A stretch of 64,000 bases of DNA from Ephemeroptericola cinctiostellae. GTDB taxonomy: Bacteria > Pseudomonadota > Gammaproteobacteria > Burkholderiales > Burkholderiaceae. Position numbers and translations under genes: made by a program. The DNA lies in assembly GCF_003339525.1 (NCBI RefSeq), contig NZ_CP031124.1, positions 1,426,001 to 1,490,000 of the forward strand. The letters are read 5' to 3'. The notes below the pieces were generated by a model. That model saw only the letters and a list, made by a program, of their open reading frames with translations, had not been told where the DNA came from and did no database searches. Shown piece by piece: positions 5,203 to 16,337 of the stretch (the first letter of the stretch is position 1; every line of letters begins with the position of its first letter).

Positions 5203-6513
5203 ATGAAATCCATCAAAATCGGTATCGCAGGCACTGGCGTCGTCGCCAGCGGCGTGGTCAATGTCCTCAAACGCAACCAAGAAGAAATCACCCGCCGTGC
5301 AGGTCGAGGCATTGAAGTGGCCGTGGTCTCATCACGCACACGCTCAAAAGCTGAAGCTTTGGTGGGTACTGGTGTTGAAATTGTCGACGACATCATGGCC
5401 GTTGCCCGTCACCCCGATGTGGACATCGTGGTTGAAACCATGGGTGGTTACGAACCCGCTCGCACTTTTGTGCTCGAAGCCATCGCCAACGGCAAACACG
5501 TGGTCACTGCCAATAAAGCGTTGTTGGCTGAACACGGTAACGAAATTTTCAAAGCCGCACAAGATAAAGGCGTAACCGTCGCATTTGAAGCCGCCGTTGC
5601 AGGCGGCATCCCCGTCATCAAATCCTTGCGCGAAGGCCTCTCCGCCAACCGCATCGAATGGATCGCAGGCATCATCAACGGCACAACCAACTTCATCCTC
5701 ACGCAAATGCGTGAAAAAGGCTGGACTTTTGACGCCGCGCTTAAGGTTGCCCAAGAGCTCGGCTACGCCGAAGCCGATCCCACATTTGACGTTGAAGGCG
5801 TCGATGCTGCGCACAAAATCACCCTCATGAGCGCGCTCGCATTTGGTGTGCCGATTAATTTCAAAGCCGCATCCATTGAGGGTATCAGCAAACTCGCCGC
5901 CACCGACATCGCCTATGCTGAAAAATTTGGCTACCGCATCAAATTACTCGGCATCACCAAACGCACACCTGACGGCATTGAACTGCGCGTCCATCCCACT
6001 TTGATTCCAGAATCACGCCTCATCGCCAACGTCAACGGCGTCATGAATGCCGTCCTTGTTAAAGGGGATGCCGTGGGTGCAACGCTCTACTACGGCGCAG
6101 GTGCAGGCGCAGAACCGACAGGCTCATCGGTTATCGCGGACCTCATCGACGTCACCCGTACCATCACCGCCGACCCTGAACACCGCGTGCCACACCTCGC
6201 ATTCCAACCCGATGCTCTGGAAAACATCCCGATGTTGCCACTCTCTGCGGTCAAAACGCGCTACTACCTGCGCCTCACCGTACAAGACCGCACAGGCGTA
6301 CTCGCCAACATCACCCGCATCCTCGCTGACCACGATATTTCGGTTGACGCCATGCTGCAAACCGAAGTCGATGACACCACCAAACAAACCCACATCGTCA
6401 TCATGACGCACATCTCGCTTGAGTCAAGCGTCGATGCTGCTGTACAGCAGATCAAAGCATTGGATACGGTGACGGGTGATGTGGTCAAGTTACGGGTTGA
6501 AGAGTTGGGTTAA
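5203..6513 (+). CDS. hom: Homoserine dehydrogenase
   Basis: Reduces aspartate semialdehyde to homoserine with NAD(P)H, the branch to threonine and methionine. 436 residues, the standard length of the monofunctional enzyme. The N terminus has the Rossmann motif GIAGTGVVASGVV (6-18). The substrate domain contains GIINGTTNFILTQM (about 158-171) and the AEADPTFDVEG motif. A C-terminal ACT domain (about 353-430, YYLRLTVQDRTGVLANI) is the usual threonine feedback site. A strong terminator follows at 6535-6560, so hom is a single-gene unit here. Threonine synthase, its usual neighbour, is 13 kb away beyond the defence block. The coding sequence is rich in C-ending codons, unlike the T- and G-rich style of many neighbours. 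Confidence 0.97.
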   Translation: MKSIKIGIAGTGVVASGVVNVLKRNQEEITRRAGRGIEVAVVSSRTRSKAEALVGTGVEIVDDIMAVARHPDVDIVVETMGGYEPARTFVLEAIANGKHVVTANKALLAEHGNEIFKAAQDKGVTVAFEAAVAGGIPVIKSLREGLSANRIEWIAGIINGTTNFILTQMREKGWTFDAALKVAQELGYAEADPTFDVEGVDAAHKITLMSALAFGVPINFKAASIEGISKLAATDIAYAEKFGYRIKLLGITKRTPDGIELRVHPTLIPESRLIANVNGVMNAVLVKGDAVGATLYYGAGAGAEPTGSSVIADLIDVTRTITADPEHRVPHLAFQPDALENIPMLPLSAVKTRYYLRLTVQDRTGVLANITRILADHDISVDAMLQTEVDDTTKQTHIVIMTHISLESSVDAAVQQIKALDTVTGDVVKLRVEELG

Positions 6514-6534
6514 ACTGCAGAAATTAAATAAAGT

Positions 6535-6560
6535 AAAAGCGGGAGTTATCCCGCTTTTTT
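6535..6560 (+). terminator. Rho-independent terminator after hom
   Basis: Arms AAAAGCGGGA (6535-6544) and TCCCGCTTTT (6549-6558) around loop GTTA, followed by more T. It lies 22 bases after the hom stop and insulates hom from the defence operon. Confidence 0.9.
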
Positions 6561-6624
6561 ACAAAAAACTCTGTACTTGAATTTAAAGTATATTCATATA
6601 GACTCTTGATACGGGAAACTCATT

Positions 6625-9525
6625 TTGAGCACAAACCACATTTCAGCTTATCAAAGTCAATACTTGGCTTGGCTTTTGAGTCGCAATGCCGCGAGTAACA
6701 GCATTGACTCATTGGCGAGTACGTTGGTTGACTCCAAGGTTGATTTGAATCCGCATCAACTTGAAGCGGCATTGTTCGCGTGTCAAAATCCACTCAGCCG
6801 TGGCGTGATTTTGGCGGATGAAGTCGGTTTGGGTAAAACGATTGAAGCGGGTTTGGTCATCTCACAAAAATGGGCAGAACGCAAACGCAAGCAACTCATC
6901 ATCGTCCCCGCCAATCTACGCAAACAATGGCATCAAGAGTTACAAGAAAAGTTTGGTTTACAAGGCACGATTTTAGAAAGTAAAAATTACAATGCCTTGG
7001 CAAAAAATCACAAAAAACCATTCGAAACATTGTTTGAGAATACCCAAGGGCCGATTATTTGCTCTTACCCATTCGCAAAATCCAAAGCCAAGGAAATTAA
7101 AGAAATTTTTTGGGATGCTGTGATACTGGATGAAGCGCATCGTCTGCGCAATGTTTACAAATCATCCAATGTGATTGGCAATACGCTTAAAGATGCGTTA
7201 GCTCATGTAGACTCAAAAATCTTATTGACCGCCACACCATTGCAAAACTCCTTACTCGAACTCTATGGTTTGGTGAGTTTAATCGATGACCGTGTGTTTG
7301 GTGATTTAGACAGCTTTAGAGCGCAATTCGCATTGACCAATCGCGAAAGTACCTTTGCCCAATTGCGTCACCGCTTGTTGCCTTTATGCAAGCGTACTTT
7401 GCGACGCGACGTACAACAATATGTGCCCTATACCAATCGCATTGCCATTGTCGAAGAGTTTTTCCCTACCGAACAAGAGCGCGAATTTTCCAGCATGGTT
7501 GCTGATTATCTCCGTCGTCCTGATCTTAAAGCCATGCCCAACGGTCAGCGACAGCTTATTTCACTGGTGTTATGGAAGCTCCTGGCTTCCTCACCGCAGG
7601 CGATCGCCGGCGCATTAGAGACCATGCGTCAACGCCTACAAAACAAAGTAGATGATGCCCTCCAGCCCGTCAACTTAATCGATTCTTTAGATGAGGATTT
7701 TGAAGCCTTAGACGAAATGGCAGATGAATGGTCGGACAGTGGCCCACTCGATCCAGAGCAACAACAAGAACGCGACGCTTATCTGGACGAAATCGCCGAA
7801 CTCAAGAAATTTGCTGAGCTTGCAGCGAGCATTCGAGATAACGCCAAAGGTCAAGCGTTGATTAAAGGATTAGACAAAGCCTTCGTTGAACTCAAACGAC
7901 TCGGTGCTGCGAAAAAAGCCATTATTTTTACCGAGTCAAAGAAAACTCAAACTTACTTACAAGAATTGCTCAGTCAAACACCTTATGGTGAAGGTCTGGT
8001 GCTTTTTAATGGTACCAATTCAGATGCCAGCGCACAAAAAATCTACAAAGATTGGCTCAATAAGCATCAAGGCAGTGACCTCATCACAGGCTCAAAAACC
8101 GCCGACACACGCGCCGCACTGGTCGAGTACTTTCGTGAACACGATAATCCGCAAGGGCAAATCATGATTGCCACCGAAGCGGGTGCAGAAGGCATTAACT
8201 TACAATTTTGCTCATTGGTGATTAACTACGATTTACCGTGGAATCCACAGCGCATCGAGCAGCGCATCGGTCGCTGTCACCGCTATGGTCAAAAGCACGA
8301 CGTGGTTGTGGTCAACTTCATTGATAAAAGCAACGAAGCCGATCAGCGCGTCTATGATTTGCTCAACATCAAGTTCAAACTGTTTGATGGTGTATTTGGC
8401 GCCAGTGACGAAGTGCTCGGCGCGATTGGGTCTGGCGTGGATTTTGAGCGGCGCATTGCAGATATTTATCAAAACTGTCGTGACCCACAAGAGATTAAAA
8501 CCAGTTTTGAACAACTTCAACTCGACCTCTCGCAAGAAATCAACGAAAAAATGATGCAAACGCGGCAAATGCTGTTCGAGCATTTCGATGAAGAAGTACA
8601 TCAAAAAATCCGCATACAAGCACAAAACGGCACGCGCACCCAAAACCGCTATGAGCAAATGTTGCTTGAGATCACCCATGCAGAATTAAAGACCGACCAA
8701 TGTGCTGTGTTTGATGACCATGGTTTTGAGCTCAAACAATTACCCGACGCGACATTAGAGTCTATTTGCCCACTCGGTCGCTACGAGCTACCAAGGTTAT
8801 CGAACGATGCGCACAGCTATCGCATCGCCCACCCACTCGCGCAATGGGTCATCGCCCAAGCGAAAAGCCGCAGCCTAAACGAAACATCTACGCGCTTGAT
8901 ATTTGACTATCAAGCCTACCCAAGCAAAATCAGCACCTTAGAGCCGTATCAAGGACAAAGCGGCACACTCATCGTCAAAGTACTCACCGTGCAAGCATTG
9001 GAGCGCATGGAGCAGCACCTCATCGTCTCAGCCGTGACCGATGATGGACAAGTTCTACAAGACGACGACCCAGAGCGTTTGCTGCGCATACCTGCGCAAG
9101 AGCAGGCAATCCAGTCTTTGTCACACAATGAATTATTAGACGCCGATGTGAACCAGCGCAGTCAAAACTGCCAACGCGACATCAATCAGCGCAACTTAGG
9201 CTACTTCACCCAAGAAATCGACAAACTCGATGCATGGGCGGACGATCGCAAACTTGGGTTAGAACAACAAATCAAAGACATCGACCGCGACATCAAAGAA
9301 ACACGCAAAACCGCAGCCACTGCGCCGACATTAGATGAAAAACTGCATTGGCAAAAGCAACAGCGTGAACTTGAAATAAGAAGAAATAAACTGCGTCGCG
9401 AGCTTTTTGATAGACAGGATGAGGTGGAACAAGAGCGTAATAAGTTGATAAGTGGATTAGAAGATAAATTAGTTCAGAATGTGGATGAGCAAGTGTTGTT
9501 TTGTATAGAATGGTTATTGTTATGA
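6625..9525 (+). CDS. SNF2/RapA-type DEAH helicase of a defence operon
   Basis: 966 residues, a cytoplasmic superfamily 2 ATPase. Walker A is in LADEVGLGKTIEAG (K71), motif II is DEAH near residue 170, motif III is LLTATPLQNS near 202-211. The C-terminal RecA lobe has motif V (IATEAGAEGINL) and VI (QRIGRCHRYGQ near 546). The last about 120 residues (EIDKLDAWADDRK onward) are strongly charged and look like a long coiled coil. No nuclease motif is visible. The start is TTG at 6625; no ATG lies close enough to keep the N-terminal helices. DISARM DrmD and RapA-like enzymes share this architecture, but no DrmA, DrmB or DrmC genes are present. The next gene begins 34 bases downstream, so the two are co-transcribed. 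It probably remodels or translocates along DNA for the methylase/nuclease pair downstream. Confidence 0.88.
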   Translation: MSTNHISAYQSQYLAWLLSRNAASNSIDSLASTLVDSKVDLNPHQLEAALFACQNPLSRGVILADEVGLGKTIEAGLVISQKWAERKRKQLIIVPANLRKQWHQELQEKFGLQGTILESKNYNALAKNHKKPFETLFENTQGPIICSYPFAKSKAKEIKEIFWDAVILDEAHRLRNVYKSSNVIGNTLKDALAHVDSKILLTATPLQNSLLELYGLVSLIDDRVFGDLDSFRAQFALTNRESTFAQLRHRLLPLCKRTLRRDVQQYVPYTNRIAIVEEFFPTEQEREFSSMVADYLRRPDLKAMPNGQRQLISLVLWKLLASSPQAIAGALETMRQRLQNKVDDALQPVNLIDSLDEDFEALDEMADEWSDSGPLDPEQQQERDAYLDEIAELKKFAELAASIRDNAKGQALIKGLDKAFVELKRLGAAKKAIIFTESKKTQTYLQELLSQTPYGEGLVLFNGTNSDASAQKIYKDWLNKHQGSDLITGSKTADTRAALVEYFREHDNPQGQIMIATEAGAEGINLQFCSLVINYDLPWNPQRIEQRIGRCHRYGQKHDVVVVNFIDKSNEADQRVYDLLNIKFKLFDGVFGASDEVLGAIGSGVDFERRIADIYQNCRDPQEIKTSFEQLQLDLSQEINEKMMQTRQMLFEHFDEEVHQKIRIQAQNGTRTQNRYEQMLLEITHAELKTDQCAVFDDHGFELKQLPDATLESICPLGRYELPRLSNDAHSYRIAHPLAQWVIAQAKSRSLNETSTRLIFDYQAYPSKISTLEPYQGQSGTLIVKVLTVQALERMEQHLIVSAVTDDGQVLQDDDPERLLRIPAQEQAIQSLSHNELLDADVNQRSQNCQRDINQRNLGYFTQEIDKLDAWADDRKLGLEQQIKDIDRDIKETRKTAATAPTLDEKLHWQKQQRELEIRRNKLRRELFDRQDEVEQERNKLISGLEDKLVQNVDEQVLFCIEWLLL

Positions 9526-9559
9526 AAGAGTTTCTTTCAAAAATAAAAGGGAGGTTATT

Positions 9560-11374
9560 TTGACTGCTATTCAGGCTGAATTTAAGCAAAGACTTGAGCA
9601 AATTTTAAAAGATAGATTTGTTGCGAGTATGCCCAAAACAAAGAGTACGTGTGATGAAGCAAAATCATGTTCTCGCGCATTGGCTGCATTTGCCTTGAAT
9701 AAACGTCTGGATATTAAACCTCAAGAGGCCGCAAAATCTGTCATTGATGATGTTAACGATCATGGTATTGATGCAATTTATTACCATAAAGCAGAAAATA
9801 GCGAAGAAGATGGTACTTTATACTTAGTACAAGCAAAACTAAACGACAATAAAAATTTCGAGCAAGAGGACGCTCTTTGCATGATGGATGGTGTTCGTAA
9901 AATATTGCGTCAAGAATTTGATAGTTTTAATGACCTCGTTAAAAATCGTCAAACAGAGATTGTGCAAGCATTAGACGAGTGTACGCACATTCAGTTACTT
10001 GTGATTTATACGGGTAATGATGTCTCACAAACTGCCAAACAAAAATTTGATACTTTATTCAATGATCGTGATGACTTGGATGAGCGTCTTTGTCAGATGA
10101 TTGACTATTTTTCGCCACAAGAGATTGAGGATAAATTAAGAGAAGAGCAATCGCACAAACCTATTCATACTGACTTGTATTTAACCAAAAGCCAAAAAAT
10201 CGACCAAGATTCTCTCACCTACTATGGGCTTGTAAATATCACTGACATGATTGACTTACACGTGCAGCATGGTAAAGCCTTATTTGAGCACAATATTAGA
10301 TATTTTTTGGGTACATCAAAATCGACGGTTAACCAATCTATCCAAAAAACCTTACGTGAACACCCTCAACAATTTTTTTATTTGAATAATGGAATTACAG
10401 CAATTGCCGAGATTATAGAGCCAAAATCTAATCATAATCGAGGCAAAAGTGGTATTCAAAAAATTAAAGTACGTGGGTTGTCCATTATCAACGGTGCTCA
10501 AACGATTTCTACCTGTGCTGATTTTGCTCAAAACAATCCTGATGTTGATTTAAGTGCAGCGAAAGTGATGTTTACACTGATTAAAGCCGATGCGCGAGCA
10601 TTTGGGGCGAAAATTACCAAAGCGCGTAATCATCAAAATCCAGTTACAACCAATAATTTTGCCGCATTAGATCCGATACAAGAGCGAATTCGCCAAGATA
10701 TTGCTGTACTCAATGAAGGCTATGTTTACTCTTATCGTCCAGAAGCTATTGTGAACAGTACTCATGTGATTCGGCTTGAAGACGCTTTAAATGCGTTGCT
10801 GCTTGTAAGCAACAACCCAACGTATCCCGCCCAAATAAAGCACAATGCAAATGCCTTAAATCATAAAGATAGTTCGGCCTATAAAGAAGTTTTTACTGAA
10901 GATCTGAGGGCAATTAAACTCTTAAATGCCACGCTTGTGTACCAAACCTTGCAAAGCGTCATTTTGGATTATGAACGAGGAAGTCAAGGTCAAGAAAAAT
11001 TGGTTTTACGGCACGGCAAATTTGTCATCATTGCTGTAATGATGAAATGCTTGAAGAAAAATTGGATTGATTTAGAGCGAATTATAGACATTGAAAAATT
11101 AAAAAACACACTGAGCAGTCCATTAGATGAGTTACGTCAGCAGATCATTGATTCTTTTATTTCTACTGCATATAAAGGGCCTTTAGCTTTTTTTAAAAGT
11201 CAGGTGGATGTGGTGGATTTGATGGATCGTATTATGAGAACTCATTTTTGGCTTGTATCAGATATCGCATTAGACAAAATGCCCAAGGGACTTTTCGATA
11301 AGTTCCCCAAAGAATCTCGCTTTAACTACATGGTGCAGCGAGCACCACAAATTGAATTTAGAGAAGCACAATGA
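9560..11374 (+). CDS. AIPR-family abortive infection/phage resistance protein with nuclease-like N terminus
   Basis: 604 residues, starting at TTG (9560) behind a strong GGGAGG ribosome site. The middle carries the AIPR signature: FFYLNNGITAI (about 274-284), then LSIINGAQTIST (about 309-320) and the KITKARNHQNPV stretch. The N terminus has GIDAI (D71) and LVQAK (Q91, K93), the D...QxK pattern of the PD-(D/E)XK nuclease fold that is common in this family. The gene is visibly more AT-rich than its neighbours. It overlaps the methyltransferase gene by ATGA at 11371-11374, so the two are translationally coupled. AIPR proteins (PF10592) are associated with phage resistance, but the mechanism in this context is not established. 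Standard type III systems have no such subunit. Confidence 0.85.
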   Translation: MTAIQAEFKQRLEQILKDRFVASMPKTKSTCDEAKSCSRALAAFALNKRLDIKPQEAAKSVIDDVNDHGIDAIYYHKAENSEEDGTLYLVQAKLNDNKNFEQEDALCMMDGVRKILRQEFDSFNDLVKNRQTEIVQALDECTHIQLLVIYTGNDVSQTAKQKFDTLFNDRDDLDERLCQMIDYFSPQEIEDKLREEQSHKPIHTDLYLTKSQKIDQDSLTYYGLVNITDMIDLHVQHGKALFEHNIRYFLGTSKSTVNQSIQKTLREHPQQFFYLNNGITAIAEIIEPKSNHNRGKSGIQKIKVRGLSIINGAQTISTCADFAQNNPDVDLSAAKVMFTLIKADARAFGAKITKARNHQNPVTTNNFAALDPIQERIRQDIAVLNEGYVYSYRPEAIVNSTHVIRLEDALNALLLVSNNPTYPAQIKHNANALNHKDSSAYKEVFTEDLRAIKLLNATLVYQTLQSVILDYERGSQGQEKLVLRHGKFVIIAVMMKCLKKNWIDLERIIDIEKLKNTLSSPLDELRQQIIDSFISTAYKGPLAFFKSQVDVVDLMDRIMRTHFWLVSDIALDKMPKGLFDKFPKESRFNYMVQRAPQIEFREAQ

Positions 11375-13083
11375 AAAAACAGAAACTCGAACTCACTTGG
11401 ATTGGCAAGGAACTGCGCCCGAAGTTGGAGGCGCGGATTTTATTGGAGGATGCGGCTCGTTCGTATCATGCGAAGTCGCGGGTGGGTGAGCGGGATATTT
11501 TTGACAATCAATTGATTTTTGGGGATAACTTGCTGGCGTTGAAGGCGTTGGAGCAGGAGTATGCGGGGCGGGTGAAATGTGTGTTTATTGACCCGCCGTA
11601 CAACACGGGCAGTGCGTTTACGCATTATGACGATGGTTTGGAGCACAGTATTTGGTTGGGTTTGATGCGTGACCGCCTCGAAATCATCCGCCGCCTGATG
11701 AGTGATGATGGTAGTTTGTGGATTACGATTGATGACAATGAATGCCATTATTTGAAAGTTTTGTGTGATGAAGTTTTTGGGCGTGGGAATTTTGTGGCGA
11801 ATGTGGTTTGGCAGAAACGAACATCGCCAGACAATCGTCTACGATTAGGCAATGCGCATGACCATGTTCTTGTTTATGGTAAATCGCCGCTAATGCATCA
11901 AACCTTTAACCAATTACAAGTGAGTGAATCACGTAAAAAAGACTTCAAGAATCCTGATGGTGACCAAAGAGGTGCGTGGGCTTCAACAGATTTCACAGGA
12001 ATGACTGGGCATGCTACAAAATCACAGTTTTATACAATTGTCTCGCCAAACGGAAAGAAGCATCCTCCACCAGAAGGCCGTTGTTGGGCTATCAGTGAAG
12101 ATAACTTTAACAAACTAATGCTGGAAAACCGAGTTTGGTTTGGTGCGGATGGAAATGCACGCCCTCGATTAAAGCGGTTTTTGTCGGAAATGGAAGGACA
12201 AAATGCTTGGTCATGGTGGAGTAATGATGAAGTAGGTCACAATCAAGAAGCGAAAAAAGAAATTAATACCCTCTTTGGTGCCGACAATCCATTTGATACT
12301 CCAAAGCCCGAACGCCTTTTACAACGCATTATCCACTTAGCCACCAACCCCAACGACCTCGTCCTCGATTCCTTCGCAGGCAGCGGCACCACAGGCGCGG
12401 TTGCGCACAAGATGGGTCGCCGTTGGATCATGATTGAGTTGGGTGAGCATTGTCATACGCATATTATTCCGCGCTTGCAAAAGGTGATTGATGGCACCGA
12501 CCAAGGCGGCATCAGCAAGGCGGTCGATTGGCAGGGCGGCGGTGGGTTTCGTTACTATCACCTTGCGCCAACCTTGATTATCAAAGACCGTTGGGGCAAT
12601 GACATCATCAATCCTGAATACAATGCGGCGATGCTGGCGGAGGCTTTGTGTAAGTTGGAGGCGTTTACCTATGCGCCATCGGAGGTGCATTGGTGGCAGC
12701 AGGGGTATTCGAGCGAGACGGATTTTATTTATGTGACCACGCAGAGTTTGTCGGTGGCGCAGTTGCAGGTTTTGAGTGATGAGGTGGGCGCACATCGGTC
12801 GTTGTTGGTGTGCTGTTCGGCGTTTCGTGGGATTAAGTCGAGCGAGGCGATGGTGCGCTTCCCGAATTTGAGCTTGAAAAAGATTCCTAAGATGGTCTTG
12901 TCACGCTGCGAGTGGGGGCATGATGATTACAGCCTGAATGTGGCGAATTTACCGATGGCCGAGCCTACGCCTGTGAGCGTATCGCAAGCATCTGAGGTGG
13001 CCAATACACGCAAAACCCCGCGCGGTAAGGTGGTGCGTGATGATGCGCCTTTGTTGGATGGGTTGTTTGAGGCGTCAGAGTAG
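11371..13083 (+). CDS. Type III-like DNA adenine methyltransferase (Mod, beta class)
   Basis: 570 residues, shorter than EcoP-type Mod (about 645). Motif IV is FIDPPYNTG (DPPY at 74-77) and comes before the SAM-binding motif DSFAGSGTTGA (about 334-344): the beta-class order, with DPPY pointing to N6-adenine. The region between (about 145-300) is the target-recognition domain; its base composition is more AT-rich than the flanks, suggesting recombination. The last about 150 residues, after the Rossmann core, are a family-specific tail that may contact the helicase subunit. The ATG overlaps the AIPR stop. I see no simple repeats of the kind that make mod genes phase-variable. It should provide both modification and sequence recognition for the restriction subunit at 13284. 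Confidence 0.92.
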   Translation: MKKQKLELTWIGKELRPKLEARILLEDAARSYHAKSRVGERDIFDNQLIFGDNLLALKALEQEYAGRVKCVFIDPPYNTGSAFTHYDDGLEHSIWLGLMRDRLEIIRRLMSDDGSLWITIDDNECHYLKVLCDEVFGRGNFVANVVWQKRTSPDNRLRLGNAHDHVLVYGKSPLMHQTFNQLQVSESRKKDFKNPDGDQRGAWASTDFTGMTGHATKSQFYTIVSPNGKKHPPPEGRCWAISEDNFNKLMLENRVWFGADGNARPRLKRFLSEMEGQNAWSWWSNDEVGHNQEAKKEINTLFGADNPFDTPKPERLLQRIIHLATNPNDLVLDSFAGSGTTGAVAHKMGRRWIMIELGEHCHTHIIPRLQKVIDGTDQGGISKAVDWQGGGGFRYYHLAPTLIIKDRWGNDIINPEYNAAMLAEALCKLEAFTYAPSEVHWWQQGYSSETDFIYVTTQSLSVAQLQVLSDEVGAHRSLLVCCSAFRGIKSSEAMVRFPNLSLKKIPKMVLSRCEWGHDDYSLNVANLPMAEPTPVSVSQASEVANTRKTPRGKVVRDDAPLLDGLFEASE

Positions 13084-13084
13084 A

Positions 13085-13198
13085 TTTTTGCGAGGGCAGT
13101 TACTCGAAGATTTCGATCAACTGAACAATGTTTTGAATGACTTCCAGTTATCCGAGAAATTCGGATCACTGAGCGATTATAAATTTTGCAGTTATTAA
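13085..13198 (+). pseudogene. Possible remnant of a lost gene between mod and res
   Basis: In the frame starting at 13085 the translation is plausible protein (RFLRGQLLEDFDQLNNVL, then NDFQLSEKFGSLSDY) and ends at TAA 13196-13198. It has no start codon, no ribosome site and is only about 37 codons. It could be the 3' scar of a gene deleted from the operon. It may also be chance. Confidence 0.25.
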
Positions 13199-13216
13199 GT
13201 ATGACTTAATAACTGC
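13188..13216. repeat. Perfect 13-bp inverted repeat between mod and res
   Basis: GCAGTTATTAAGT (13188-13200) and ACTTAATAACTGC (13204-13216) are separated by only 3 bases. A smaller palindrome (ATCCGA/TCGGAT, 13150-13166) lies just upstream. There is no T tail, so it is not an obvious terminator. It may be an operator, an mRNA-processing hairpin or a protective 3' end for the upstream transcript. Confidence 0.7.
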
Positions 13217-13283
13217 CTGAGGGCATCAGACATCATGGCGTGTTGAATACCGTGGGGTCAGGTAAATATTAAGGGATAAATTC

Positions 13284-16004
13284 ATGATGAGTAACAACCG
13301 ACCAGCAGAGCAAGTCGTTCATTGGGTGGATAAGCGTTTGTCTTTACGCGCGCCTCAGGCGGAATCTTTGGCAAAGTTGCATCAGGCGATTGATTTGTCG
13401 AGTGGTTTGCTCTCGCATGAGCGTGATTTGGGCGAGGTGCTTGCGGCTTTGCGCGAGGCGTTTCCGACGTTGTCTGATTTTGAGCGTGATTTTCCGTCGT
13501 TGTGTTTTGCGTTGGCGACGGGGGTGGGTAAAACGCGCTTGATGGGGGCGTTTGTGTCGTATCTGCATTTGGCTTATGGGATTAATAATTTTTTTGTACT
13601 GGCGCCGAATTTGACGATTTATAACAAGTTGATTGCGGACTTTACGCCGAACACGCCGAAGTATGTGTTTAAGGGCATTTCGGAATTTGGGCAGCAGCCA
13701 CCCGAGATAATCACTGGGGATAATTACGAGGAGCGTGGCGCGAATATCGGATTGTTGAGCCCTGTGACGATTAATATTTTTAATATCTCGAAGATTAATT
13801 CTGAAGTCCGAGGTGGCAAAGAGCCACGGATTAAGCGGATGCGTGAAGTTTTGGGCGACAGTTATTTTAATTATTTGGCCAATCTGGATGATTTGGTTTT
13901 GCTGATGGATGAGTCGCACCGTTATCGTGCGCAGGCGGGCATACGCTCGATCAATGATTTGCGCCCTTTGCTGGGTTTGGAGTTGACGGCTACGCCTTTT
14001 GTCGAGGCGACGAGCGGCAAAACTGTGGCTTTTAAGAATGTGGTGATGGATTATCCCTTGGGTCGGGCTTTGGATGATGGCTTTGTGAAGTCACCTGCTG
14101 TGGTGACGCAACGCAATTTTGATGCGTCACAATACAGCCCCGCAGAGTTGGAGCATATTAAGTTGGAGGACGGTATTCGTTTGCATGAGACGACCAAGGT
14201 GGAGTTACTGACCTATGCTCGTGAAAACAATGTGGCGGTGGTCAAGCCTTTTATGTTGGTGATTGCCCGAGATACGACCCATGCACAGCAACTCAAAAGC
14301 TTGATGGAGTCGGATGCTTTTTATGAAGGGCGTTATTGGGACAAGGTGATTCAGGTCGATTCGAGCCAAACGGGTGCGAAAGAAGAGGAGATGATTGCAC
14401 GACTGTTGGCGGTAGAGAGCTTTGATGAGCCGACCGAGATTGTGGTGCATGTGAATATGCTCAAAGAGGGTTGGGATGTGACCAACTTGTACACCATCGT
14501 GCCGCTGCGTGCGGCGAATGCGCGAACTTTGGTTGAGCAATCGATTGGCCGTGGCTTGCGTTTGCCTTATGGCGCACGCACAGGGGTGGATGCGGTGGAT
14601 AGACTGAATATCATTGCGCATGATAAGTTCCAAGAGATTGTTGATGATGCCAATCGAGCGGGTTCGCCGATTCGTTTGCAGCAGTTGATTTTGGATGCGC
14701 CGAATAAGGATGATGCCAAAGTCAGTTTGCAAGTGCTGTCCAATACGGAGCATTTATTGGGGTTGGTAACGCCCAACGCTCACAAAGATTCGCTTAAAAG
14801 TGATGGTGGTGAGGCGTCGGGCAACGCCAAGCCTGTTTTTGCCAATGAGCAAGAGCGTGAGGTGGCAAGGGTGGTTTTGCAGCAGGTACAGGCTTTGGAA
14901 TTGGAGCGTGGTTTGGTGCCAAATTCTGTGGCACTGAGCACACCTGAAGTGCAAAAAATCATTACCGAACGGGTGGCTGAGTCGATTAAACCCAAGCAAG
15001 CGGGGCTTTTGGATGAGGCGGACACCGCACAAACGGTTGTGAATGTGGCTGATGTGGTGGCGAAAACGACTGCGATTTTTCAAGCCCAAATCATTGATAT
15101 CCCGAGAATTGTTGTGGTGCCAACAGGTGAGGTGAGTTCTGGTTTTCACCCATTTAAGTTGGATGTGGCGCAACTGCGTTTACAACCTGCAACCCGTGAG
15201 ATTGTTGGACAGGATTTACACAGCCACAGTCAATTTACGATGACGGCTGAAACTGGGTTTACTGAAGAGCGGTTGGAGAATTATGTGGTGCATGCATTGA
15301 TGGACTTTGAGGATGTGGATTATTTTACCCAAGCCGATTTGCTTTATGATTTGGCGGGGCAAATGGTGGCGCATTTGCGCAGTTATTTGACCGACGATGA
15401 TGCGCGCAATGTATTGATTCAGTATCGACGCATGATTGCGCAAACCATTCATGCGCAAATGATGGCGCATTTTTGGGAAACCGCCACCGCTTACGAGGCA
15501 CAAGTCAGTCGTGGATTTACCAGTTTAAAAACATCCAACATCACCACTTCCGCTAATGAGCCTATTCATCATTTTCGTCAAACGGTAACGGAGCTGGGGC
15601 GGATTAAGCAGATGGTGTTTGGTGGGTTTGAAAAGTGTTTGTATCCTGTACAAAAATTTGACTCGGATACGGAACGGCGATTCTCAGTTTTGGCTGAACG
15701 CGATGCGATGAAGTGGTTTAAGCCTGTCAAAGGGCAGTTTCAAATTTATTATAAACGCGGCGGCGAGCAGCCTGAATATGTGCCTGATTTTGTGTTGGAG
15801 ATGACCGATGTAATTGTAATGGTTGAGACCAAGGCACGCAATGAGATGAATAACGAAGAGGTTCAGGCAAAAGCCAGTGCCGCTCAAACGTGGTGCACGC
15901 ATGCGAGTGACTACAATACCCAATTTGGCGGCAAGCCTTGGCGCTATGTGCTGGTTGCGCATGATGACGTGGGTGAAATGAAGAAGGTTATTGATTTCAT
16001 ATGA
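13284..16004 (+). CDS. Type III-like restriction subunit (Res): DEAD helicase plus PD-(D/E)XK nuclease
   Basis: 906 residues. Walker A is LATGVGKTRLMGAF (K83), motif II is LLMDESHRYRA (about 205-215), motif III is LELTATPF. Motif V/VI region: HVNMLKEGWDVTNLYT then LVEQSIGRGLRLP. The C terminus has YVPDFVLE and VMVETKA (about residues 831-851), a D-x13-ExK active site of the Mrr-like nuclease fold used by type III Res subunits. The start is ATG at 13284 behind AAGGGAT; a second ATG follows directly. It is separated from mod by 200 bases with palindromes, so its expression may be partly independent. With Mod it should make an ATP-dependent restriction complex. A terminator follows at 16148. Confidence 0.92.
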   Translation: MMSNNRPAEQVVHWVDKRLSLRAPQAESLAKLHQAIDLSSGLLSHERDLGEVLAALREAFPTLSDFERDFPSLCFALATGVGKTRLMGAFVSYLHLAYGINNFFVLAPNLTIYNKLIADFTPNTPKYVFKGISEFGQQPPEIITGDNYEERGANIGLLSPVTINIFNISKINSEVRGGKEPRIKRMREVLGDSYFNYLANLDDLVLLMDESHRYRAQAGIRSINDLRPLLGLELTATPFVEATSGKTVAFKNVVMDYPLGRALDDGFVKSPAVVTQRNFDASQYSPAELEHIKLEDGIRLHETTKVELLTYARENNVAVVKPFMLVIARDTTHAQQLKSLMESDAFYEGRYWDKVIQVDSSQTGAKEEEMIARLLAVESFDEPTEIVVHVNMLKEGWDVTNLYTIVPLRAANARTLVEQSIGRGLRLPYGARTGVDAVDRLNIIAHDKFQEIVDDANRAGSPIRLQQLILDAPNKDDAKVSLQVLSNTEHLLGLVTPNAHKDSLKSDGGEASGNAKPVFANEQEREVARVVLQQVQALELERGLVPNSVALSTPEVQKIITERVAESIKPKQAGLLDEADTAQTVVNVADVVAKTTAIFQAQIIDIPRIVVVPTGEVSSGFHPFKLDVAQLRLQPATREIVGQDLHSHSQFTMTAETGFTEERLENYVVHALMDFEDVDYFTQADLLYDLAGQMVAHLRSYLTDDDARNVLIQYRRMIAQTIHAQMMAHFWETATAYEAQVSRGFTSLKTSNITTSANEPIHHFRQTVTELGRIKQMVFGGFEKCLYPVQKFDSDTERRFSVLAERDAMKWFKPVKGQFQIYYKRGGEQPEYVPDFVLEMTDVIVMVETKARNEMNNEEVQAKASAAQTWCTHASDYNTQFGGKPWRYVLVAHDDVGEMKKVIDFI

Positions 16005-16337
16005 TTGATTTGGAATATTAAGCTGATGGTAAACACGGGCGTATAGATGTTTTTTTGCAGGCTATGGCTTTAGCCTTGGCGGCTATGAGGGACGTATCGT
16101 TGATGACACTTTAAGTGTCGTATGGTAAGTGATTGTTAAGTGAATGGGCGCAACATCAATTTGGTGTTGCGCTTTTTTATGTCATCAAGGTTTTAATTGG
16201 TGATTGTTACTGCCTCTCGTGCTATTTATTGGTTTTAATTGCTGGATTCGATGGTGAAATGCGGTTAAAATTATGCCTTTTGACGGGTATTGTAAGCTGT
16301 AATGCCTGCTTTATCCAAAATGTAAAGGAATGTGCTT
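16005..16337. other. Intergenic region after the defence operon
   Basis: 333 bases without a convincing gene. It holds a small palindrome (GACACTTTAAGTGTC, 16102-16116) and the terminator at 16148-16178. The 72-codon frame from 16133 lies across the terminator and has no ribosome site, so I do not call it. Confidence 0.6.
16148..16178 (+). terminator. Rho-independent terminator after res
   Basis: Arms GCGCAACA (16148-16155) and TGTTGCGC (16165-16172), extended inward by three more pairs, followed by T6. It marks the end of the defence operon about 145 bases after the res stop. Confidence 0.88.

Follow-up and report, generated by a model that had tools for sequence, protein, structure and literature searches.

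An SNF2-family helicase and an exchangeable AIPR gene in a type III-like restriction-modification locus of Ephemeroptericola cinctiostellae

The stretch of Ephemeroptericola cinctiostellae DNA analysed here (64,000 nucleotides of contig NZ_CP031124.1, positions 1,426,001 to 1,490,000; hereafter the window) contains a putative type III-like restriction-modification (RM) operon. It consists of four intact open reading frames (ORFs) on the + strand, without internal stops, encoding an SNF2/RapA-type helicase (6625..9525; 966 amino acids (aa), TTG start), an AIPR protein (9560..11374; 604 aa, TTG start), the beta-class type III DNA methyltransferase Mod (11371..13083; 570 aa, ATG start) and Res (13284..16004; 906 aa, ATG start), which combines a superfamily 2 (SF2) helicase with a C-terminal PD...ExK nuclease. 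SNF2 and AIPR are separated by 34 base pairs (bp), AIPR and Mod overlap by 4 bp (ATGA), Mod and Res are 200 bp apart, and 3' of Res lies a hairpin of 13 pairs followed by a T run (16146..16174, + strand) that resembles an intrinsic terminator. An earlier note, made from the letters of this DNA, had described this order and spacing, and the ORFs and the hairpin confirm it. Promoter-like sites were not in excess in the region (15 versus 15.3 in shuffles) and terminator-like sites were barely commoner (14 versus 11.1, standard deviation 2.7); because such sites are about as frequent in shuffled sequence, the 3' hairpin was judged on its strength alone, by which it is strong and terminator-like. 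Comparison with related loci suggests that SNF2, Mod and Res form the usual core of such operons, and that AIPR is exchangeable cargo in a slot between SNF2 and Mod.

Mod and Res belong to the same families as the subunits of the type III enzymes EcoP15I and EcoP1. Enzymes of this type are Mod2Res-like complexes that cut next to asymmetric sites lacking modification. Beta-class methylases have motif IV (DPPY) ahead of motif I (FxGxG), and this type III order was found in Mod (DPPY within 11581-11610, FAGSGT within 12361-12399), which matches PF01555 (163 bits), has MTase_III as its best PADLOC match (725.7 bits) and finds EcoP15I Mod in the PDB at 1.1e-33. Residues 139-311 of Mod contain no position that is 97% conserved among 94 Mod proteins, which matches the expectation for a changing specificity region. 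Res likewise has the type III combination of SF2 helicase motifs and a C-terminal PD-ExK nuclease (PDF...ETK within 15777-15839; P834, D835, E848 and K850 each at least 97% conserved among 95 Res proteins); it matches PF04851 (72 bits), has REase_III as its best PADLOC match (697.2 bits) and finds EcoP15I Res in the PDB at 9.6e-07. The EcoP15I complex is described as Mod2Res1 (PMC4490356; this paper and most of those cited below are drawn on for the parts of their text that were available). The present locus differs in its additional SNF2 motor and its cargo slot, and in a Res that stays far under the cut-off of the EcoP15I-type equivalog NF012027 (44.8 bits versus 564).

The SNF2 protein (PF00176 and PF00271) carries the motifs DEVGLGKT (6811-6846), DEAH (7123-7143), TATP (7225-7242) and QRIGR (8248-8292), and its closest solved relative by sequence is RapA, a protein that remodels stalled transcription complexes. 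Its best PADLOC match is DrmD (644 bits), and it resembles the DrmD_b kind of DISARM helicase; nevertheless, it scores under both NCBIfam cut-offs for DrmD (648.7 bits over residues 32-679 against 950 for the DrmD_b kind, and 274.2 bits against 610), and its clade accompanies type III genes in our sample. DrmA, DrmB and DrmC were not found among the PADLOC rows of AIPR, Mod and Res (for Mod among the best 25 of 63), nor were other DISARM genes found among the Pfam families of the eight flanking ORFs; SNF2 itself cross-matches the DrmA helicase model (130 bits, PADLOC). The DrmD scores and the missing partner genes rule out membership of DISARM. Similarly, PglZ and BrxC/DUF499 are absent from the Pfam families of the four proteins and the eight flanking ORFs, which rules out membership of BREX or a BREX-related system; the earlier note was right in setting both systems aside.

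The AIPR protein matches PF10592 (142.2 bits, residues 242-533; gathering cut-off of 25 passed), a domain that it has in common with the AbiU/AIPR abortive-infection proteins (AbiU is its best PADLOC match, 118 bits) and with MzaE of the Mza system, to which it scores 54.5 bits versus a cut-off of 1050. An AlphaFold2 model of the N-terminal 215 aa (9560..10204) had a predicted local distance difference test score (pLDDT) of 92.8 and a predicted template modelling score (pTM) of 0.87, and its closest structural neighbours (re-alignment of the best 1000 chains, of which 998 aligned) were AspBHI, MspJI and FokI. The modelled fold is that characteristic of PD-(D/E)XK nucleases and bears a D...(Q/E)xK motif; in the stretch D63...D67...D71...Q91-A-K93 (9737..9844) the five residues are conserved in 74, 76, 76, 74 and 73 of 77 AIPR proteins, respectively. 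We confidently predict that this N-terminus is a PD-(D/E)XK nuclease of the AspBHI/MspJI type, which bears out the nuclease-like motif that the earlier note had pointed to. AIPR proteins have been described in print with an N-terminal HEPN domain, proposed to be an RNase (PMC3506569). The model and the conserved motif would instead favour PD-(D/E)XK, leaving HEPN unsupported here; the lack of HEPN rows among the structural neighbours carries no weight against it. The full-length AIPR model was weak (pLDDT 67.9) and a fold search with it gave nothing at E <0.001, and the AIPR profile had no match among PDB sequences up to E 0.1.

A search for conserved adjacency, as the earlier note had proposed, showed that the four-gene order recurs. 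Among 77 loci from a scan anchored on AIPR (one genome per species, 84,980 species), 47, all in other genomes, match the window in carrying SNF2, then AIPR, then Mod, then Res on a single strand, often with extra genes interspersed; another 13 retain one or more of the core partners (many of these loci are on short contigs, and two have fragments only) and 17 have none. The order exceeds chance. Identity to the proteins of the window in the 47 loci is 51-68% for SNF2, 47-70% for Mod, 53-70% for Res and 23-46% for AIPR. The whole block was found chiefly in Pseudomonadota, and also on one Deinococcus plasmid; partial blocks occur on contigs that we take, partly from the names of the organisms, to be from Verrucomicrobiota, Myxococcota, Planctomycetota and Bacteroidota, those of the last two lacking SNF2.

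Since the AIPR-anchored loci were preselected for AIPR, the anchor was moved to Res. At E <= 1e-50, a Res match was present in 22 of 398 Pseudomonadota genomes, and at E <= 1e-100 in 21 of 369 genomes of the same class, with the genome of the window among the positives both times. The first scan contributed 20 of 21 other places and the second 20 stretches covering 21 of 22 other rows. Of these 40 loci, 25 were readable, which required either a visible SNF2 gene or a minimum of 8 kb 5' of Mod, and 15 were dropped for contig ends or by this rule. SNF2 was present in 20 of the 25 and AIPR in only five. On plasmids the picture was similar: 26 records match Res (15 of them from Salmonella), and all seven examined, including one from Salmonella, carry SNF2, Mod and Res, with AIPR present once; four have an Abi-family protein, an AAA ATPase with a DUF4276 protein, or unknown proteins in the slot, and in two SNF2 abuts Mod. 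The composite, recurrent operon of the earlier note is therefore upheld as to gene order, and its fixed set of four subunits is not, as AIPR is no constant component and other modules replace it. One of these plasmids (L102, CP116019.1, Salmonella) has an IS256 transposase gene between SNF2 and the Abi-family gene 5' of Mod-Res; downstream there is an integron carrying resistance genes.

The same division is apparent from the divergence of the genes. In 51 loci with all four genes (from 125 scanned), pairwise identities correlated best between SNF2 and Res (Mantel, 0.94), followed by SNF2-Mod (0.66) and Mod-Res (0.64), and then by AIPR-Res and AIPR-SNF2 (both 0.51) and AIPR-Mod (0.35). The median pairwise identity of AIPR is 31%, and in 231 of the 494 locus pairs with Res more than 70% identical the AIPR proteins are less than 35% identical; loci whose Res proteins are 90% identical can have AIPRs that are 24% identical. 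Judged by these comparisons, SNF2-Mod-Res appears to be the usual core.

The slot between SNF2 and Mod is variously occupied. In the 20 Res-anchored loci with SNF2, it holds AIPR (five), Schlafen/AlbA-like genes (three), IetAS (two), nothing (four), or, once each, an SMC-like gene, PDC-S06, DSR2, HEC-01, an unknown protein and a degraded stretch. AIPR shares it with a RhuM-like gene in L134 and with an SMC-like gene in L200, and the AIPR-anchored loci add SMC-, Ppl- and GHKL-like genes. Cargo was found also between Mod and Res (a YhcG/DUF1016 nuclease, Ppl) and 3' of Res (MORC-like GHKL, PDC-S06, GmrSD-like). IetAS (an AAA ATPase and a subtilase) is recurrent (L015, L016, L022, L028, L031, L036, L013, L197, L202, L205, L210), with SNF2 not seen in L013, L205 and L210; a published hotspot count lists type III RM (1542) and ietAS (797) side by side, shared operons being unstated in the part available (PMC12629846). 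Three cargo units (SMC-like, 1032-1033 aa; AIPR; GHKL-like, 665-666 aa) are stacked in L061, L063 and L066. Pfam assigns Schlafen AlbA_2 and HATPase_c_4 to the cargo of L148, for which reason a 'pAgo' label for it (82 bits) was dropped, and also to the second gene of L208; relatives of this cargo are present in L149 and as the first gene of L208. In L205, an SNF2-less operon with IetAS has a KwaB homologue (463 bits; 7359-8381) immediately 5' of Mod. Between Mod and Res there is a Fic/DOC protein in L136 (10926-12044) and a RhuM-family protein in L132 (612-1679). Slot proteins of L199 (5034-6113) and L105 (10606-12189), for which neither Pfam nor PADLOC gave a match at the thresholds applied, are candidate unknown effectors. 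In the window, comparison with 128 loci revealed no remnants of lost cargo in the gaps.

The SNF2 clade, despite its DISARM-like best matches, adjoins type III genes in every readable locus sampled with SNF2 as the anchor. At E <= 1e-150, 19 of 398 Pseudomonadota genomes contain a match to SNF2, at 20 places in all; four of these places stop at a contig edge and were not counted (L159, L160, L161, L166), and in all 16 readable loci, the window included, a type III methyltransferase and a type III restriction endonuclease gene lie downstream on the same strand. These partners fall into three lineages: lineage A, that of the window, in 11 of the 16 loci (window included), lineage B, with an EcoP15I-like Res, in two (L162, with PDLC03647, and L165), and lineage C, with a long or split methyltransferase and a Res of another lineage (PDLC03646 and PDLC03654), in three (L163, L164, L167). 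A second search, to 1e-40 in 299 genomes mostly overlapping the first set, gave 12 full-length matches, none under 664 bits, after which the next six score at most 224 bits; three of these six (38-53% identity over partial length) resemble pieces of the same family. The clade is thus discrete. In a tree of 54 rows the helicases of lineages B and C are nested among those of lineage A, with two changes each forced by the starred branches, and L165 (B) is sister to L167 (C) (support 100). This scattering indicates that SNF2 was re-paired with different Mod-Res pairs and, as far as the tree can be relied on, that it remained in type III systems as one Mod-Res pair gave way to another. The earlier note's assignment of SNF2 to Mod and Res is strengthened by both anchors. 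Of the arguments for SNF2 as a functioning component rather than a bystander, its persistence through replacement of Mod-Res is the strongest.

Teaching presents type III restriction as needing two genes, and the earlier note had taken Mod plus Res to be the rule. The controls were EcoP15I-type Res matches, 40 in all from 39 genomes, of which 25 were inspected. Two of the 40 (G381 and G395, identical to L162 and L165) adjoin the SNF2 clade of the window. The clade is absent from the 23 other control loci (best score 100 bits, versus at least 1098 for clade members), and 14 of these have a different helicase, HKD-Snf2, 5' of Mod-Res. The operon there reads HKD-Snf2, a small gene, Mod and an EcoP15I-like Res (L169-L174, L176-L179, L181, L182, L186, L187); profiles, applied to L169 only, identified the helicase as PDLC01075 (444 bits) and the small gene as DUF4391, a name that occurs in a single paper of the open-access library searched. 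These operons likewise have an Snf2 helicase 5' of Mod-Res, but differ from the window in the helicase family (with an HKD nuclease), in the extra gene and in the EcoP15I-like Res. Five of the 40 matches exceed the curated EcoP15I-type cut-off, and neither helicase was found in the four such loci inspected (L168, L189, L190 and the truncated L188). The two-gene rule thus held in the three readable loci above the cut-off and failed in the 14 EcoP15I-like controls with HKD-Snf2. From the clade and the HKD-Snf2 operons together, an additional Snf2 motor next to type III genes exists in at least two unlike forms, and none was seen in the small number of EcoP15I-type systems proper examined here.

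Taken together, we consider it probable that the locus encodes a type III-like RM system with a core of SNF2 motor, Mod and Res and a cargo slot, occupied here by the AIPR nuclease. In outline, Mod would methylate adenine at its own sites on host DNA, thereby marking self, and Mod-Res would recognise unmodified sites, hydrolyse ATP and cut by means of the C-terminal PD-ExK nuclease. The SNF2 motor may track on double-stranded DNA and help Mod-Res to locate foreign DNA, clear it or commit to it, so aiding the cut or licensing it. AIPR could be a second-line DNA nuclease, restrained while restriction works and released once it is blocked or bypassed, in a back-up or abortive role; the earlier note had likewise suggested an abortive effector triggered when restriction fails. 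More tentatively, the locus might represent a separate subtype of ATP-dependent restriction, in which SNF2 is a third partner that relays infection status to adjacent, interchangeable effectors (AIPR, DSR2, IetAS, Schlafen-like and others).

Several observations weigh against a core of SNF2, Mod and Res with AIPR under its control. Five of the 25 readable Res-anchored loci have no SNF2 (L136, L137, L193, L205, L210), nor does L201, seen by eye and excluded by the rule on account of a spurious upstream Mod match, so Mod-Res can persist without it. All six correlations, those of AIPR included, were above every one of 2000 permutations, by which AIPR shares some history with the other genes; the Mantel test counts related loci as independent, and the SNF2 tree was made by a quick method without bootstrap. 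AIPR may also be free-standing cargo that the core does not regulate. The SNF2-less loci, together with the many cargo genes that match known stand-alone defences, would fit crowding in a defence island, with SNF2 and AIPR lying beside an ordinary type III Mod-Res pair without being related to it. For AIPR alone this is largely the answer; for both genes together we find it improbable, given the type III genes in all 16 readable loci of the SNF2 clade, the re-pairing across three Mod-Res lineages and the SNF2-Res correlation.

That same correlation could have arisen by recombination instead of partnership if SNF2 and Res serve as conserved flanks between which the interior (cargo and Mod specificity) is swapped by homologous exchange, and indeed the interior is the most variable part (Mod 139-311, AIPR) while the outer genes co-diverge. 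Such exchange leaves unexplained why a type III partner is kept when the entire Mod-Res pair is replaced, and it too strikes us as improbable. An obligate machine of four subunits with AIPR as a fixed component would agree with the ATGA overlap, which resembles translational coupling, and with the order kept in the AIPR-anchored loci. This we hold to be very improbable, since AIPR is rare in the Res-anchored sample, which rules out an obligate four-gene system, since SNF2 is directly followed by Mod in four loci, and since AIPR is exchanged between loci with closely similar Res. Finally, SNF2 might be a safety device, either alleviating restriction by stripping or resetting Mod-Res or protecting the host chromosome, and have no part in attacking phage DNA. 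The relationship to RapA and its remodelling role speak for this, and nothing specific speaks against it; sequence does not discriminate here, and we regard it as unlikely.

If SNF2 is a working part of the core, such loci are easily misread, as a reader of the best PADLOC labels could split the operon into DISARM (DrmD), Abi (AbiU) and plain type III (MTase_III, REase_III), and accounts of how ATP-dependent restriction works would have to include a further component. The slot supplies, beside a single recognition core, a series of effectors that recurs in nature, by which the long-suspected coupling of restriction to suicide defence becomes testable. Parts of this picture are in print: AIPR was noted in RM operons in 2008 (PMC2292703) and linked to type III RM in 2012 (PMC3506569), a section dealing with type II systems places a Prevotella SNF2/RAD54-family helicase 5' of N6-methyladenine (m6A) methylase genes (PMC5608340), and the idea of defences nested in restriction operons has been published (Payne et al. 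2024, cited in PMC12629846). Those host-embedded defences likewise lie within a restriction operon, which is of type I there, whereas here the core is type III-like and there are three places for cargo. ARMADA and BREX-related systems also combine a RapA/Snf2-type motor with a DNA methylase, but are built on YprA or DUF499/PglZ (PMC12458937, PMC12839542), and the words AIPR and DrmD are absent from the main texts of these two papers. A printed description of an SNF2-Mod-Res(-AIPR) system was not found in the one open-access library searched, and we claim no priority.

In its own genome the block is lineage-specific. SNF2, AIPR, Mod and Res each have a single match there at the thresholds applied. 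The upstream homoserine dehydrogenase gene was matched in all five congeners, AIPR had no match in these five, and in the four congeners aligned similarity stops at 6410-6588, 5' of the SNF2 start; it is from this loss of similarity and the missing AIPR that the block is judged lineage-specific. Our claim is limited to this, because a threonine synthase gene next to homoserine dehydrogenase, tried as proof of an empty site in the congeners, had no match in L098-L101, and the downstream flank matches one congener only, at another place. The Pfam families of the eight flanking ORFs are housekeeping or transport families, and between the homoserine dehydrogenase gene and the block there is a hairpin of 10 pairs (6535..6558) that scored as terminator-like on the - strand and has a T run on the + strand too.

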